Shown in pieces: positions 40,655 to 49,754 of a DNA stretch of 64,000 nucleotides. Below the pieces are notes generated by a model that was not told where the DNA came from, ran no database searches, and saw only the letters and a list, made by a program, of their open reading frames with translations. The position numbers and the translations under genes are program-made. This stretch comes from an uncultured Methylophaga sp. (GTDB lineage Bacteria > Pseudomonadota > Gammaproteobacteria > GCF-002020875), in contig CALEHW010000014.1 in the NCBI GenBank assembly GCA_937877715.1, positions 39,574 through 103,573 of the forward strand, given 5' to 3'. Each line of letters begins with the position of its first letter. Position 1 is the first letter of the stretch.

Positions 40655-40863
40655 TTGTTATCTCCCGTACATCATTCATGGTTAACCAATAGACAATCTG
40701 TGGGTAAACTTATCAAGTAGTCGACTCTACTTGGTTACGTAATGCTACGTTTGGTGTTTGTCATCTCGGCGCGTCAGTCGCCATTAATCAATTTTTTAAA
40801 TCGCCATCAAGTCTCAATTACGCTACAATTGTGGTAAATCAGCACGATAGATGGGGTTTTCCT

Positions 40864-41091
40864 ATGAGTATTTCGGTTCGTATAGATGATCAATTGGTTG
40901 CGCAGGCAAGGAGTGCGGCGAAGGCTGAATTCCGCACCATGCAGGGTCAGATTGAATTTTGGGCAAGAGTTGGACGAGCTGCACTGGATAATCCTGATCT
41001 GCCAGTAAGCTTTATTGCGGATAGTCTGGTGTCACTTTCTGAGCCTCGTGAAGAGGTAACTGAATTTGTGCCCCAGTCTCAAGCCCAGTAA
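40864..41091 (+). CDS. ParD-like antitoxin
   Basis: MSISVRIDDQLVAQARSAAKAEFRTMQGQIEFWARVGRAALDNPDLPVSFI; overlaps the downstream toxin ORF by 1 nt. Confidence 0.8.
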   Translation: MSISVRIDDQLVAQARSAAKAEFRTMQGQIEFWARVGRAALDNPDLPVSFIADSLVSLSEPREEVTEFVPQSQAQ

Positions 41092-41369
41092 TGGGCTGGG
41101 TGGTTCGACAGACAAGACGTTTTGGCCGTGCCTATAAGAAACTCTACCGCAATGTGTTGGTTGATGTTGATGAGGCAGTGCGGGTTATTGCGGAGAACCC
41201 TTATGTAGGGGAACGCAAGAGGGGAGATCTGTCAGAGCTCTTTGTCTATAAATTTCACAGTCAGAATCAGCTGTATCTGCTTGGGTATACATGTGATGAT
41301 GAGGTGTGTCTTATATATCTTGAGGCGGTTGGCCCACATGAAAACTTCTACCGCGACTTAAAACATTAG
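41091..41369 (+). CDS. RelE/ParE-family toxin
   Basis: 92 aa; [83 protein letters not shown]. Confidence 0.85.
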
Positions 41370-43883: not shown

Positions 43884-44753
43884 TTATAGAGAGATGTCGA
43901 TAGTCTCGCGCAGCTTTTTTAGCGCCCCCTGTTCGAGCTGACGGATACGTTCAGCTGACACTCCATGTTCGGTTGCCAGCTGCTGGAGGGTTCTCTTCTT
44001 CTCCCCAAGCCAGCGGCTGGTAATGATGTGCTGGCTCCTCTCGTCCAGTGATGCGAGCGCAGACATCATCTGTCTGGTGGACTGCTCTCTCCAGTCGCTC
44101 TCCTCCAGATGCTCTTCGGGAGTCTGTTGCGGTGCCGCAAGGAATGCTGCCGGGGCGAAGTGGTCACTATCCTCATCACACCCCATAGGCAGGTCAAAGG
44201 AGGCATCATGGTGACTCAGTCGGCGCTCCATCTCCAGCACGGTCTCTGGCTTGACGTTCAGATCTTTGGCAACAGTCTCTACCTCCTTATGCGAGAACCA
44301 GCCAAGCCTCTTCTTCGAGCTGCGCAGGTTGAAGAAGAGCTTGCGCTGTGCCTTGGTGGTGGCAACCTTGACAATACTCCAGTTGCGTAGCACATATTCG
44401 TGGATCTCGGAACGGATCCAGTGGACGGCAAAAGAGACCAGCCGTACCTTCCTCTCCGGATCGAAGCGGCGTACCGCCTTCATCAGTCCCAGATTTCCCT
44501 CCTGAATCAGATCAGCCAGGGGGAGACCATAACCGAGATAGCCGCGTGCAATATGGGCGACAAAACGGAGGTTGGAGATGACAAGTTTGCGTGCCGCCTC
44601 AAGGTCACCATGCTCATGGAATCGGATTGCCAGCGCCTGCTCCTCCTCCTCATCCAGGATGGGAAATTTGCGCAGACTGTATAGATAGGCATCTATACTG
44701 CCAACATTTGCAGCGGGAAACTGACTATTAGTGGTTTGCAGCACGTAACTCAT
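43884..44753 (-). CDS. rpoH: RNA polymerase heat-shock sigma factor (sigma-32)
   Basis: 289 aa; ADLIQEGNLGLMKAVRRFDPERKVRLVSFAVHWIRSEIHEYVLRNWSIVKVATTKAQRKLFFNLRS. Confidence 0.98.
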   Translation of the reverse strand: MSYVLQTTNSQFPAANVGSIDAYLYSLRKFPILDEEEEQALAIRFHEHGDLEAARKLVISNLRFVAHIARGYLGYGLPLADLIQEGNLGLMKAVRRFDPERKVRLVSFAVHWIRSEIHEYVLRNWSIVKVATTKAQRKLFFNLRSSKKRLGWFSHKEVETVAKDLNVKPETVLEMERRLSHHDASFDLPMGCDEDSDHFAPAAFLAAPQQTPEEHLEESDWREQSTRQMMSALASLDERSQHIITSRWLGEKKRTLQQLATEHGVSAERIRQLEQGALKKLRETIDISL

Positions 44754-44783
44754 TAATTATTCTCTCTCTTTTGCATGCTCGGC

Positions 44784-44812
44784 ATTATAGTGTCAAATAT
44801 TAGCACTCGCAA
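44784..44812 (-). promoter_or_regulatory. Putative sigma70 promoter of rpoH (TTGCGA-N17-TATAAT)
   Basis: -35 TTGCGA at 44812..44807, -10 TATAAT at 44789..44784, 17-nt spacer; 30 bp upstream of the rpoH ATG. Confidence 0.7.
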
Positions 44813-44826
44813 GGTTAGAGTGCTAA
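44800..44826. promoter_or_regulatory. CIRCE element (HrcA operator)
   Basis: TTAGCACTC-GCAAGGTTA-GAGTGCTAA, a perfect 9-N9-9 match to the CIRCE consensus. Confidence 0.95.
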
Positions 44827-44915
44827 TCGGTGCTTTGGTTCCCCTGAAAAAGGGGAGGGTAACATTACGACAAACAAGGAAAAAGCTTATGTAAAACAGC
44901 GTGATATTTGAATCT

Positions 44916-45899
44916 TTACGAGATGATAGCCTCAACAAATTCAGTTGCATTAAAGGGGCGCAGGTCATTGATCCCCTCGCCAACCCCGATAAATCTGATT
45001 GGCAGCGCAAGCTGTTTGGCAACCGCGAAGATTACCCCACCCTTGGCAGTTCCATCCATCTTGGTCAGGGTGATACCCGTCAGCCCCACAGCCTGATCAA
45101 ACTGTCTGGCCTGATGCAGCCCATTCTGTCCAGTGCCAGCATCCAGGATCAGCATTATCTCGTGCGGGATGGAGTCTCCGAGCTTCTGCATCACCCGTTT
45201 CACCTTCTTCAGCTCCTCCATCAGGTTGGATTGAGTATGGAGACGGCCGGCGGTGTCGGCAAGCAGGATATCGACCCCTTTGGCGCGAGCAGACTCAACA
45301 GCGTCATATAGCACCGAGGCGCTATCTGCTCCGGTCTGCTGGGCAATAACCGGAATCTCGTTGCGCTCGCCCCAACTCTGAAGCTGCTCCACGGCGGCGG
45401 CACGGAAGGTGTCCCCAGCAGCCAACATGACCGATTTCCCTTGCTGCTGGAACTGACGGGCCAGCTTGCCGATAGTGGTGGTCTTGCCGGCACCGTTGAT
45501 TCCGACCAGCAGAATGACATAGGGGAGATGATCTATTGGTTGAAGTGGTGATTCGCACGGGGCAAGCAGCTCCAGCATGCTTGATTTCAGCGCCTTGAGC
45601 ATCGCCTCTGGATCGCTACTCTCCTCTCTGGAGAGGCGTTCACTCAGTTGGGAGAGGATCTCCTGGGTCGCCTCAATGCCGACATCGGCGGTTAGCAGTC
45701 TGGTCTCCAGATCCTCAAGTAGTTCATCATCAACGGTTTTTTTGCCTAGCAAAAGATTGCCAAGACCTGCGCTCAGGTTGGAACGGGTTTGGGAGAGACG
45801 CTCCTGCAGGCGACCAAAAACCCCTTTTTGGGTTTTCTCTACCTCGTTTGTTGCAGACCCTTGTGCCTTGCTCTTCCCAAATCCGAACATTTTATTCAA
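44916..45899 (-). CDS. ftsY: Signal recognition particle receptor FtsY
   Basis: 327 aa; VILLVGINGAGKTTTIGKLA, DILLADTAGRLHTQSNLMEELKKV, LTKMDGTAKGGVIFAVA. Confidence 0.98.
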   Translation of the reverse strand: MNKMFGFGKSKAQGSATNEVEKTQKGVFGRLQERLSQTRSNLSAGLGNLLLGKKTVDDELLEDLETRLLTADVGIEATQEILSQLSERLSREESSDPEAMLKALKSSMLELLAPCESPLQPIDHLPYVILLVGINGAGKTTTIGKLARQFQQQGKSVMLAAGDTFRAAAVEQLQSWGERNEIPVIAQQTGADSASVLYDAVESARAKGVDILLADTAGRLHTQSNLMEELKKVKRVMQKLGDSIPHEIMLILDAGTGQNGLHQARQFDQAVGLTGITLTKMDGTAKGGVIFAVAKQLALPIRFIGVGEGINDLRPFNATEFVEAIIS

Positions 45900-47315: not shown

Positions 47316-49754
47316 TCATTCGTCAGGGATAGCTCCACCCAGATCCGGTGCAGTTGCATGCATCCAGGATACTGCGGCATCAAAGTCGTCCATGATGGAT
47401 TTGCCATCCCATTCCTCTTTATTTGCAATCAGAGGCACACCGGTTTCATTGGTGTAGTGACAAGCTGCACAAACCATGGGTCCGTGAGAACCATCAGGAT
47501 TGAACTGTGCCGCCTGCTTGTAGGTGGTGATATCTACATCAGCTGTTACAGGGTAGAGCCCGTGGGTGGACTCATGACAGACCTGACAGGCGAGACCGGC
47601 ATGTCCCTTAGTATAACGCATCAGACTGTACTTGCCTGGTTGATTGATTGGAAATGCAACACCCCCCTGACCCTCAACATAAGGGGCGGCGTGACAGTCC
47701 GCACAGTGGGGCTCACCAGCTGACAACCAGTAGGACTTGCCATGTGTTGCCGCATTGTATGGCACCGCCATGGCGCCGTCGGCACCCTCAGGCAGGGTCA
47801 GAGATGCAACATCTACAGCAGGATTGGCAGAGACTGGAACGACGCTGAAGTCACCATCTTCGTCTGTGGAGCCCATGGGGCTGCCATCCTTGATTGCGAT
47901 TACTGCAACATCGGGATGAGCCACCTCTGGATCCCATAGTGCAAGGATCTGGGACTGTCCCGGGGTATCATTGCCATCAGCATCAAGCACCACCTTGGGA
48001 TCCATCATCTCCTCAAGGGTTGCCATGTCGACACCAATACCGGCTGCGATCTCCTCCAGGGACTTGTTACGCAGGGTGGTGCCTTCCTGACGGAATGCAT
48101 GGGTAATATTGTCAGCCTGGTAGAGGGCCTTGGCCAGAGGTGAGTGACAGTTGGTGCACCAGAGACCCTTGCCACCCTTACCCTTACCGTTACCGATGTT
48201 TGAGACATTGTCCTGGATCCAGCTACCGATCGCATTGAGATGCTCGGGAGTGCCGACGCCATCCTTATCCTTATAGGGGTTGGAGTGGACATCACGACCA
48301 GCGAAACAGCCCTCACCATCACGGTTATCCGCATTGGCAAAGAGGTTCTCACCATTCTCGGTTATTGGATAGCGGTCCATATTGCCGTCCTGACGATGTG
48401 ATGGGTGACAGCCCTGACATGATCCGGTACGGCCCTGACTATCCGGAAGTGGACGCTTCTCCTGATGAACCAGGTGGATTGCCTCGGTCAGCGGCATAAT
48501 TACACGATCTTCGCCACCAGGCACCAGATCACTGACATTCTTGGATTGAAGGACACCGATTACGTTATCCGCATGACACTTCTGACAGAGGATTGGATCC
48601 CCGCCCAGACGGTTATCCTTGGAGCGTGAGCTCGGATCGTAGTTCTTCAGGAAGCCAGTACCATGCTTGTCATCATGCTGCTCCAGGATGGAGAGCGAGG
48701 TTGCCTTCAGGTTGGCGATCCAGTCACTGGCCCCCAACCCTTTCCAGAATGCCTTCTCACCCTTGTACAAGGTGTACTTGGTGCCGTTGGCATTGTCGTT
48801 GGAGTGACAATTTGCACAGTTTGGAACATCAATGGGGCTGGTACCGATAAAGTGAACCGGCTTGCCGTTGACCCTATCGATAATTGCCTCACCAGTATCG
48901 GCATCAACCAGTGCAGCCCAGGACTCCTGGTATGGGCGAATATCGCTCTCCAGCATGGATAGTGGATCACGCTTCATGACGCTATCCTGCCATGGTGTAA
49001 GTGCCAGACCGAGCGCATCCCAGATGCCTGGATTGGTGAGCACAATCGGCACATTATCCAGTACAGGTGACTTGGTGAATACGATGGTTCCCTTCTCGCC
49101 AGAGTAGTGTAGATGTCCGTCACTCATTGGGCTTGGAACTGCCGCACCGGCAGGACCGTTATCCTTTGGAATAGGGATCTCGATACCTACACGCGCCTTC
49201 TTGCTATCTGCGCTGGTCCCCTCAGGATTGGATCCTTTCAGATCCTGGTAGACATAGAGGTGGGTGAAGTAGGCGTTGGCCACATTATCATTTGGACCAT
49301 ATGTGCCATCACCATCAACATCGTATTTGACATCCCAGTAGGTGAGCTTGTCACCCTCTGAGTAAGTATTGTCGATGTGGCCAAACTCGATCTTCATCCG
49401 TCTATTGCCATCAACGAGAATGTCATGCTCCTCCTCATCTGACTCCAGCACCTCGGGCCACTTTTTGGCGCCCCAGGCAGTCTTGACTACCTGTGCCTGG
49501 ATAGAATTGTATGGCGGAAGTACGCAGCAATAGGTGAAGTCAAAGCCGGTACAGTGCATGCCCAGCTCATAGTTCAGACTGATGTTGTACTCGTTCTTCG
49601 GTCTTGTTGGATCTGCCGCAGCGGCCGCTGCATCAGCTCCATAAACACGCTCTTTGATGGGGTTGTACACGGCCTGCTGTTGTGCACCACAACCAGCAGC
49701 AACCGCAATAATCAGAGCGCTGCCCACCAGTACGGTTGGACGACGTAATTTCAT
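47316..49754 (-). CDS. Multiheme c-type cytochrome putative lipoprotein (7 CxxCH motifs)
   Basis: 812 aa; lipobox-like LIIAVAAGC; CANCH, CQKCH, CQGCH, CTNCH, CADCH, CQVCH, CAACH; N-terminal LGMHCTGFDFTYCCVLPPYNSIQAQV. Confidence 0.88.
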   Translation of the reverse strand: MKLRRPTVLVGSALIIAVAAGCGAQQQAVYNPIKERVYGADAAAAAADPTRPKNEYNISLNYELGMHCTGFDFTYCCVLPPYNSIQAQVVKTAWGAKKWPEVLESDEEEHDILVDGNRRMKIEFGHIDNTYSEGDKLTYWDVKYDVDGDGTYGPNDNVANAYFTHLYVYQDLKGSNPEGTSADSKKARVGIEIPIPKDNGPAGAAVPSPMSDGHLHYSGEKGTIVFTKSPVLDNVPIVLTNPGIWDALGLALTPWQDSVMKRDPLSMLESDIRPYQESWAALVDADTGEAIIDRVNGKPVHFIGTSPIDVPNCANCHSNDNANGTKYTLYKGEKAFWKGLGASDWIANLKATSLSILEQHDDKHGTGFLKNYDPSSRSKDNRLGGDPILCQKCHADNVIGVLQSKNVSDLVPGGEDRVIMPLTEAIHLVHQEKRPLPDSQGRTGSCQGCHPSHRQDGNMDRYPITENGENLFANADNRDGEGCFAGRDVHSNPYKDKDGVGTPEHLNAIGSWIQDNVSNIGNGKGKGGKGLWCTNCHSPLAKALYQADNITHAFRQEGTTLRNKSLEEIAAGIGVDMATLEEMMDPKVVLDADGNDTPGQSQILALWDPEVAHPDVAVIAIKDGSPMGSTDEDGDFSVVPVSANPAVDVASLTLPEGADGAMAVPYNAATHGKSYWLSAGEPHCADCHAAPYVEGQGGVAFPINQPGKYSLMRYTKGHAGLACQVCHESTHGLYPVTADVDITTYKQAAQFNPDGSHGPMVCAACHYTNETGVPLIANKEEWDGKSIMDDFDAAVSWMHATAPDLGGAIPDE

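Follow-up and report, generated by a model that had tools for sequence, protein, structure and literature searches.

The heat-shock sigma factor gene rpoH, in the 64-kb stretch of DNA analysed here (the window), is preceded by a perfect CIRCE inverted repeat, the predicted operator of the repressor HrcA, which shares its bases with a predicted sigma-E promoter and a predicted sigma-70-type promoter. It is very probable, judging from this arrangement and its conservation, that HrcA would occlude both promoters and so gate the synthesis of sigma-32. The operator itself, an hrcA gene in the same genome, a regulon of three CIRCE sites, overlapping promoters that are conserved and the co-inheritance of the operator with hrcA are all observed. 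The control region and the genes on either side of it contain the following features.

44916-45899, minus strand: ftsY, directly upstream of rpoH (TIGR00064, 364 bits)
44837-44842, minus strand: predicted sigma-E -35, GGAACC, from the sequence and the conserved GAAC register
44815-44819, minus strand: predicted sigma-E -10, TCTAA, whose bases come from the left CIRCE arm and the start of the spacer
44800-44826, no strand: CIRCE operator (HrcA site), a perfect 9-N9-9 palindrome
44807-44812, minus strand: sigma-70-type -35 hexamer, TTGCGA, located in the spacer and right arm of CIRCE and unchanged across six members of the genus
44797-44802, minus strand: possible second, weak sigma-70 -10, TAATAT, with TTAGCA (44821-44826) as its -35 and a spacer of 18
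44784-44789, minus strand: sigma-70-type -10 hexamer, TATAAT, likewise unchanged across the six members, even in G001, where hrcA and CIRCE are missing
43884-44753, minus strand: rpoH, heat-shock sigma factor sigma-32 (TIGR02392, 392.9 bits, cut-off 323.1)

The sequence TTAGCACTC-GCAAGGTTA-GAGTGCTAA departs from the CIRCE palindrome at none of its 18 arm positions, as the sequence-only reading had claimed, and, placed as it is at the promoter of a heat-shock gene, it belongs to the CIRCE family as a predicted HrcA operator. No other place in the window matches even when 3 mismatches are allowed, shuffled sequences gave a mean of 0.05 matches, and a perfect CIRCE is expected by chance about 8e-7 times per 64 kb of the window's composition. 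That expectation, together with the conservation of the site across families and its tracking of hrcA, rules out a palindrome arisen by chance, an origin that we find practically inconceivable. The operator lies 47-73 bp upstream of the rpoH ATG (44753) and the TATAAT hexamer 31-36 bp upstream of it, two distances that replace the single figure of about 30-60 bp given earlier.

The minus strand immediately upstream of CIRCE reads GGAACCAAAGCACCGA-TTAGCACTCTAACC, within which GGAACC-A-N16-TCTAA is a predicted sigma-E (RpoE) promoter whose -10 falls inside the operator. Sigma-E promoters have N16 between the -35 and a TCnnA -10, and P3 of E. coli rpoH is spaced likewise. The spacing in the window, GGAACCA-N16-TCTAA, matches the P3-type form GGAACNN-N16-TCnnA. 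E. coli RpoE, which was discovered through rpoH P3, recognises GGAACTT as its -35 (PMC8103513); the -35 in the window differs from this canonical sequence in its last two bases. The register of the two elements was counted in 62 non-redundant rpoH CIRCE sites, with 31 groES and 16 hrcA sites from the same genome set as controls. GAAC stands at -15/-16 from CIRCE in 43 of the 62 rpoH sites versus none of the 31 groES and none of the 16 hrcA sites, and the third spacer position, which supplies the last A of the sigma-E -10, is A in 48/62 rpoH sites versus 11/47 controls. The two elements covary, this position being A in 39 of the 43 rpoH sites with GAAC versus 9 of the 19 without it. The predicted sigma-E promoter with its -10 in CIRCE is the more widely conserved part of the rpoH control region.

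The genome from which the window comes (G000) has rpoE (TIGR02939, 306 bits, above the cut-off), adjoined by a gene for an RseA_N protein and by RseC, that is, RpoE with an anti-sigma system. On the same contig, C29, and next to rpoE, a single frame (L221:964-1923) carries an RseA_N domain and, after it, the C-terminal domain of MucB/RseB; the RseB N-terminal domain found no match in this frame, and its product could possibly be an anti-sigma-E protein of the fused form RseA-RseB(C).

The sigma-70-type promoter, TTGCGA (44812-44807)-N17-TATAAT (44789-44784) on the minus strand, has 10 of 12 consensus bases and is the only promoter-like match within 44700-44960. The sequence-only reading had described it correctly, including the overlap of its -35 with CIRCE; that account of the rpoH promoter was incomplete in missing the sigma-E promoter. 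The right CIRCE arm may also contribute to another sigma-70 -10 (TAAAAT/TAATAT), which would belong to the weakest of the three predicted promoters. In the window, TAATAT consists of the TAA of that arm plus TAT, and the third base after CIRCE is T in 57/62 rpoH sites versus 12/47 of the groES and hrcA controls. A symmetric extension of the operator, as another reading of this conserved T, was rejected, since the corresponding base ahead of CIRCE shows no such conservation (A in 14/62).

HrcA control of rpoH, proposed from the window alone, would fall if the genome had no hrcA. The gene is there (PF01628, 220 bits, E 2.8e-65, a 358-codon open frame), and it has a CIRCE of its own. A search of the 1.89-Mb genome at up to 3 mismatches gave four CIRCE-like places, of which three are plausible, at groESL, hrcA and rpoH; a reversed control pattern gave 2 matches per strand at the same threshold. 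The two sites outside the window are at the usual targets of HrcA.

Contig C13 (L001): CIRCE upstream of groES, 0 mismatches
Contig C36 (L003): CIRCE upstream of hrcA, between hrcA and nadK, 2 mismatches

The fourth place, C13:65795 (L004), has 3 mismatches and lies inside reading frames; it was set aside as probably due to chance. A grpE-like frame follows hrcA on C36 (groES, grpE and nadK were named from their translated sequences, not by family search). From these three sites, the HrcA regulon is likely to consist of groESL, hrcA-grpE and rpoH. The groES operator, unlike that of rpoH, directly follows a promoter of the CTTGACTT...CCCTATTA type.

Comparison of six species of the genus separates the fate of the operator from that of the sigma-70-type promoter. 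All five members with hrcA have CIRCE at rpoH, with 0-1 mismatches, and it is gone in G001, which lacks hrcA. In the alignment, TTGCGA, TATAAT and their 17-bp spacing are invariant in all six species, whereas the CIRCE arms are lost in G001 only. Therefore, the promoter is conserved independently of the operator, and CIRCE persists only together with the repressor. G001 (1.6 Mb, 95% complete) retains rpoH and the TTGCGA-N17-TATAAT promoter; hrcA, rpoE, the rpoH CIRCE and the sigma-E box have apparently been lost together there, with neither a qualifying rpoE nor a GGAAC box found in that genome. The exact sigma-E composite is shared by G000 and G004, the genome nearest to it (84% RpoH identity), and the sigma-E box is displaced or degenerate in G003 and G005 (degenerate in G005).

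Other organisms, too, have a CIRCE at rpoH. The best CIRCE match within 400 bp upstream of rpoH, in 80 loci of named gammaproteobacterial genomes, has 0-1 mismatch in 30 and 6-9 mismatches in 50, so that the loci fall into two separate classes. Taken as raw counts that ignore shared ancestry, here and below, hrcA is present in 29 of the 30 named genomes with the site versus 1 of the 50 without it. Carriers include Chromatiaceae, Thiohalobacter, Sedimenticola, Woeseiaceae, Competibacteraceae, Methylothermaceae, Halieaceae, Kangiellaceae, Lysobacterales and Catenovulum; among the non-carriers are Vibrio, Aeromonas, Halomonas, Marinobacter, Pasteurellaceae and Enterobacillus. In a class-wide set of 56 genomes with 53 rpoH loci, the site occurs at 29/34 loci of genomes with hrcA versus 3/19 of those without it. 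The three genomes that retain it without hrcA are G010 and G043, both incomplete, and G021, which is 97% complete; loci that lack it in the presence of hrcA include those of G018, G031 and G042, and L042.

A strict composite pattern, GAAC-N11/12-TTRGCACTC-N9-GAGTGCTAA, was found in 121 of 370 gammaproteobacterial genomes, at one site each, and its reversed control in none. Of the 370, 278 have hrcA, and 157 of these are without the strict composite (many of them still with a CIRCE and a different or no sigma-E box). Every one of the 121 carriers has hrcA, and none of the 92 genomes without the gene carries the composite. In 72 of the 73 cases with a listed rpoH coordinate, the composite is directly upstream of rpoH on the same strand, at a median of 70 bp to the match start; in the exception, G152, the composite and the rpoH identified lie on separate contigs. 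Conservation that depends on hrcA is seen in the genus, the 53 loci, the 80 loci and the 370 genomes. HrcA control of rpoH gains support from the presence of hrcA and from its co-inheritance with CIRCE, lines of evidence drawn from sequence and comparison; on the sequence-only reading, loss of HrcA would raise rpoH transcription.

In some lineages the operators may be arranged in tandem, as a partial or complete second CIRCE seems to adjoin the first. A CIRCE-like 'tcaagggttagcactcttacatt' directly follows the rpoH CIRCE of Catenovulum sp. 2E275 (L102), and 'agtagagtgctaaaattt' directly precedes that of G015 (L153).

What, then, would HrcA do at this promoter? From the positions of the elements we infer HrcA binding, repression, the use of each promoter and their joint behaviour as follows. 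Under normal conditions, an HrcA dimer on 44800-44826 would cover the sigma-E -10 and start together with the sigma-70 -35, blocking both promoters. Under heat or protein-folding stress, HrcA would be inactivated, as in other bacteria, by its intrinsic heat lability and/or by missing GroEL assistance, and we propose that groESL, hrcA-grpE and rpoH would thereby be derepressed together. Sigma-32, once derepressed, would amplify the chaperone response. Under envelope stress, RpoE would raise rpoH transcription only when HrcA is off, and the promoter may thus behave like an AND gate of two stress signals.

Could the operator act on the housekeeping promoter only, the sigma-E-like box being a relic or a coincidence in this species? 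The noncanonical GGAACC in the window, the displaced or degenerate boxes of G003 and G005 and the invariance of TTGCGA-N17-TATAAT in the genus speak for this explanation. However, G000 and G004 keep the exact composite, G000 keeps rpoE whereas G001 has lost rpoE and box alike, and across the class both the register and the covariation of -35 and -10 are very strong, so we consider it unlikely.

Two other explanations turn on ftsY, which lies directly upstream on the same strand, with its true start likely at ATG 45890. No terminator-like site was seen between ftsY and rpoH, and some rpoH transcript may therefore come by read-through. CIRCE might then work chiefly at the RNA level and not as an HrcA operator: in the leader of these read-through transcripts it would fold into a hairpin that changes the stability or translation of the rpoH message, and in Bacillus CIRCE is reported to affect mRNA stability. 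Yet a transcript from TATAAT, starting at about 44777, excludes CIRCE, its conservation tracks hrcA, which a hairpin would not need, and the base sequence itself is conserved rather than the pairing alone; such a role seems to us highly improbable. The absence of a terminator would also suit a roadblock or partial occlusion, where CIRCE-bound HrcA mainly stops polymerase arriving from ftsY and local promoters are little affected. But the operator coincides exactly with promoter elements, and the sigma-E -10 register, needless for a roadblock, recurs in dozens of families; this makes a roadblock quite improbable as the main function. Occlusion of the two local promoters by HrcA remains the reading that we favour.

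The standard model of bacterial heat shock is E. coli, where HrcA is absent and mRNA structure, proteolysis and RpoE govern the synthesis of sigma-32. The RpoH translation of the window contains AQRKLFFNLRSSKKRLGWF (QRKLFFNLR), which we take to be the RpoH box, an element linked to post-translational control. Its presence suggests that the post-translational control of sigma-32 known from E. coli is kept here, in which case HrcA would be an added transcriptional layer. A GGAAC -35 drives rpoH from the sigma-E promoter P3 of E. coli (PMC8103513), as is predicted here; unlike E. coli, which is without hrcA and CIRCE, the predicted sigma-E -10 is here part of the HrcA operator. As the composite occurs in about a third of the sampled Gammaproteobacteria, and only with HrcA, the wiring of E. 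coli looks simplified, with HrcA lost. It is tempting to propose an ancestral gammaproteobacterial circuit with HrcA atop sigma-32, the operator set in the sigma-E promoter and an AND gate at rpoH, of which E. coli would be a remnant after hrcA loss in some lineages; this proposal is tentative, and we stop somewhat short of calling it probable.

Parts of this arrangement are already known. Rodionov et al. (2004, PMC545781, Table 8) predicted a CIRCE upstream of rpoH in Geobacter sulfurreducens, where it is likewise a perfect TTAGCACTC-N9-GAGTGCTAA, at -51 of rpoH, accompanied by HrcA sites at groESL and at hrcA, the latter as hrcA-grpE-dnaK-dnaJ. Geobacter is a deltaproteobacterium, a single species with no sigma-E promoter described, whereas here the site is recurrent in Gammaproteobacteria and lies within a predicted sigma-E promoter. 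With the proteobacterial HrcA/CIRCE regulon in general (groESL, hrcA-grpE-dnaK; Permina and Gelfand 2003, cited in PMC545781), the present system shares the repressor family, the operator and the core targets groESL and hrcA; unlike that regulon, it has the sigma factor gene itself as a predicted target and a third promoter architecture, with sigma-E and sigma-70 elements overlapping. In Agrobacterium, HrcA and sigma-32 are, according to a secondary account, separate regulators of groE (Nakahigashi et al. 1999, cited in PMC11764788). The two systems coexist and converge on groE there as they do here, but that account has them as differential and independent, whereas in the present genome rpoH itself is a predicted target of HrcA. 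In the literature that mentions CIRCE, HrcA and rpoH together, or HrcA, rpoH and RpoE, represented mostly by titles and abstracts, we found neither a combined HrcA/sigma-E rpoH promoter nor its gammaproteobacterial spread, and an earlier notice is possible, for example in Permina and Gelfand 2003, which reportedly deals with the sigma-32 and HrcA regulons of gamma-proteobacteria, or in RegPrecise. To that extent, CIRCE at rpoH (in Geobacter) and RpoE control of rpoH (textbook matter) are old, and the HrcA/sigma-E composite is apparently new.

Should the composite function in the predicted way, a large share of the Gammaproteobacteria would set the HrcA repressor over the sigma-32 circuit, and would do so exactly where RpoE exerts its control. 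Stress signals from the cytoplasm and from the envelope would then meet within about 40 bp of DNA. The prediction is testable in cultured carriers of the site, such as Catenovulum and relatives of Methylothermaceae and Lysobacterales.

Two other loci of the window deserve mention. A type II toxin-antitoxin pair at 40831-41369 (plus strand) has a ParD-like antitoxin (PF11903) overlapping a ParE-like toxin (PF15781). At 47316-49754 (minus strand) is an 812-aa multihaem cytochrome with weak MtrC/MtrF-like and cytochrome c7 matches near the Pfam cut-offs, possibly an extracellular electron-transfer protein.
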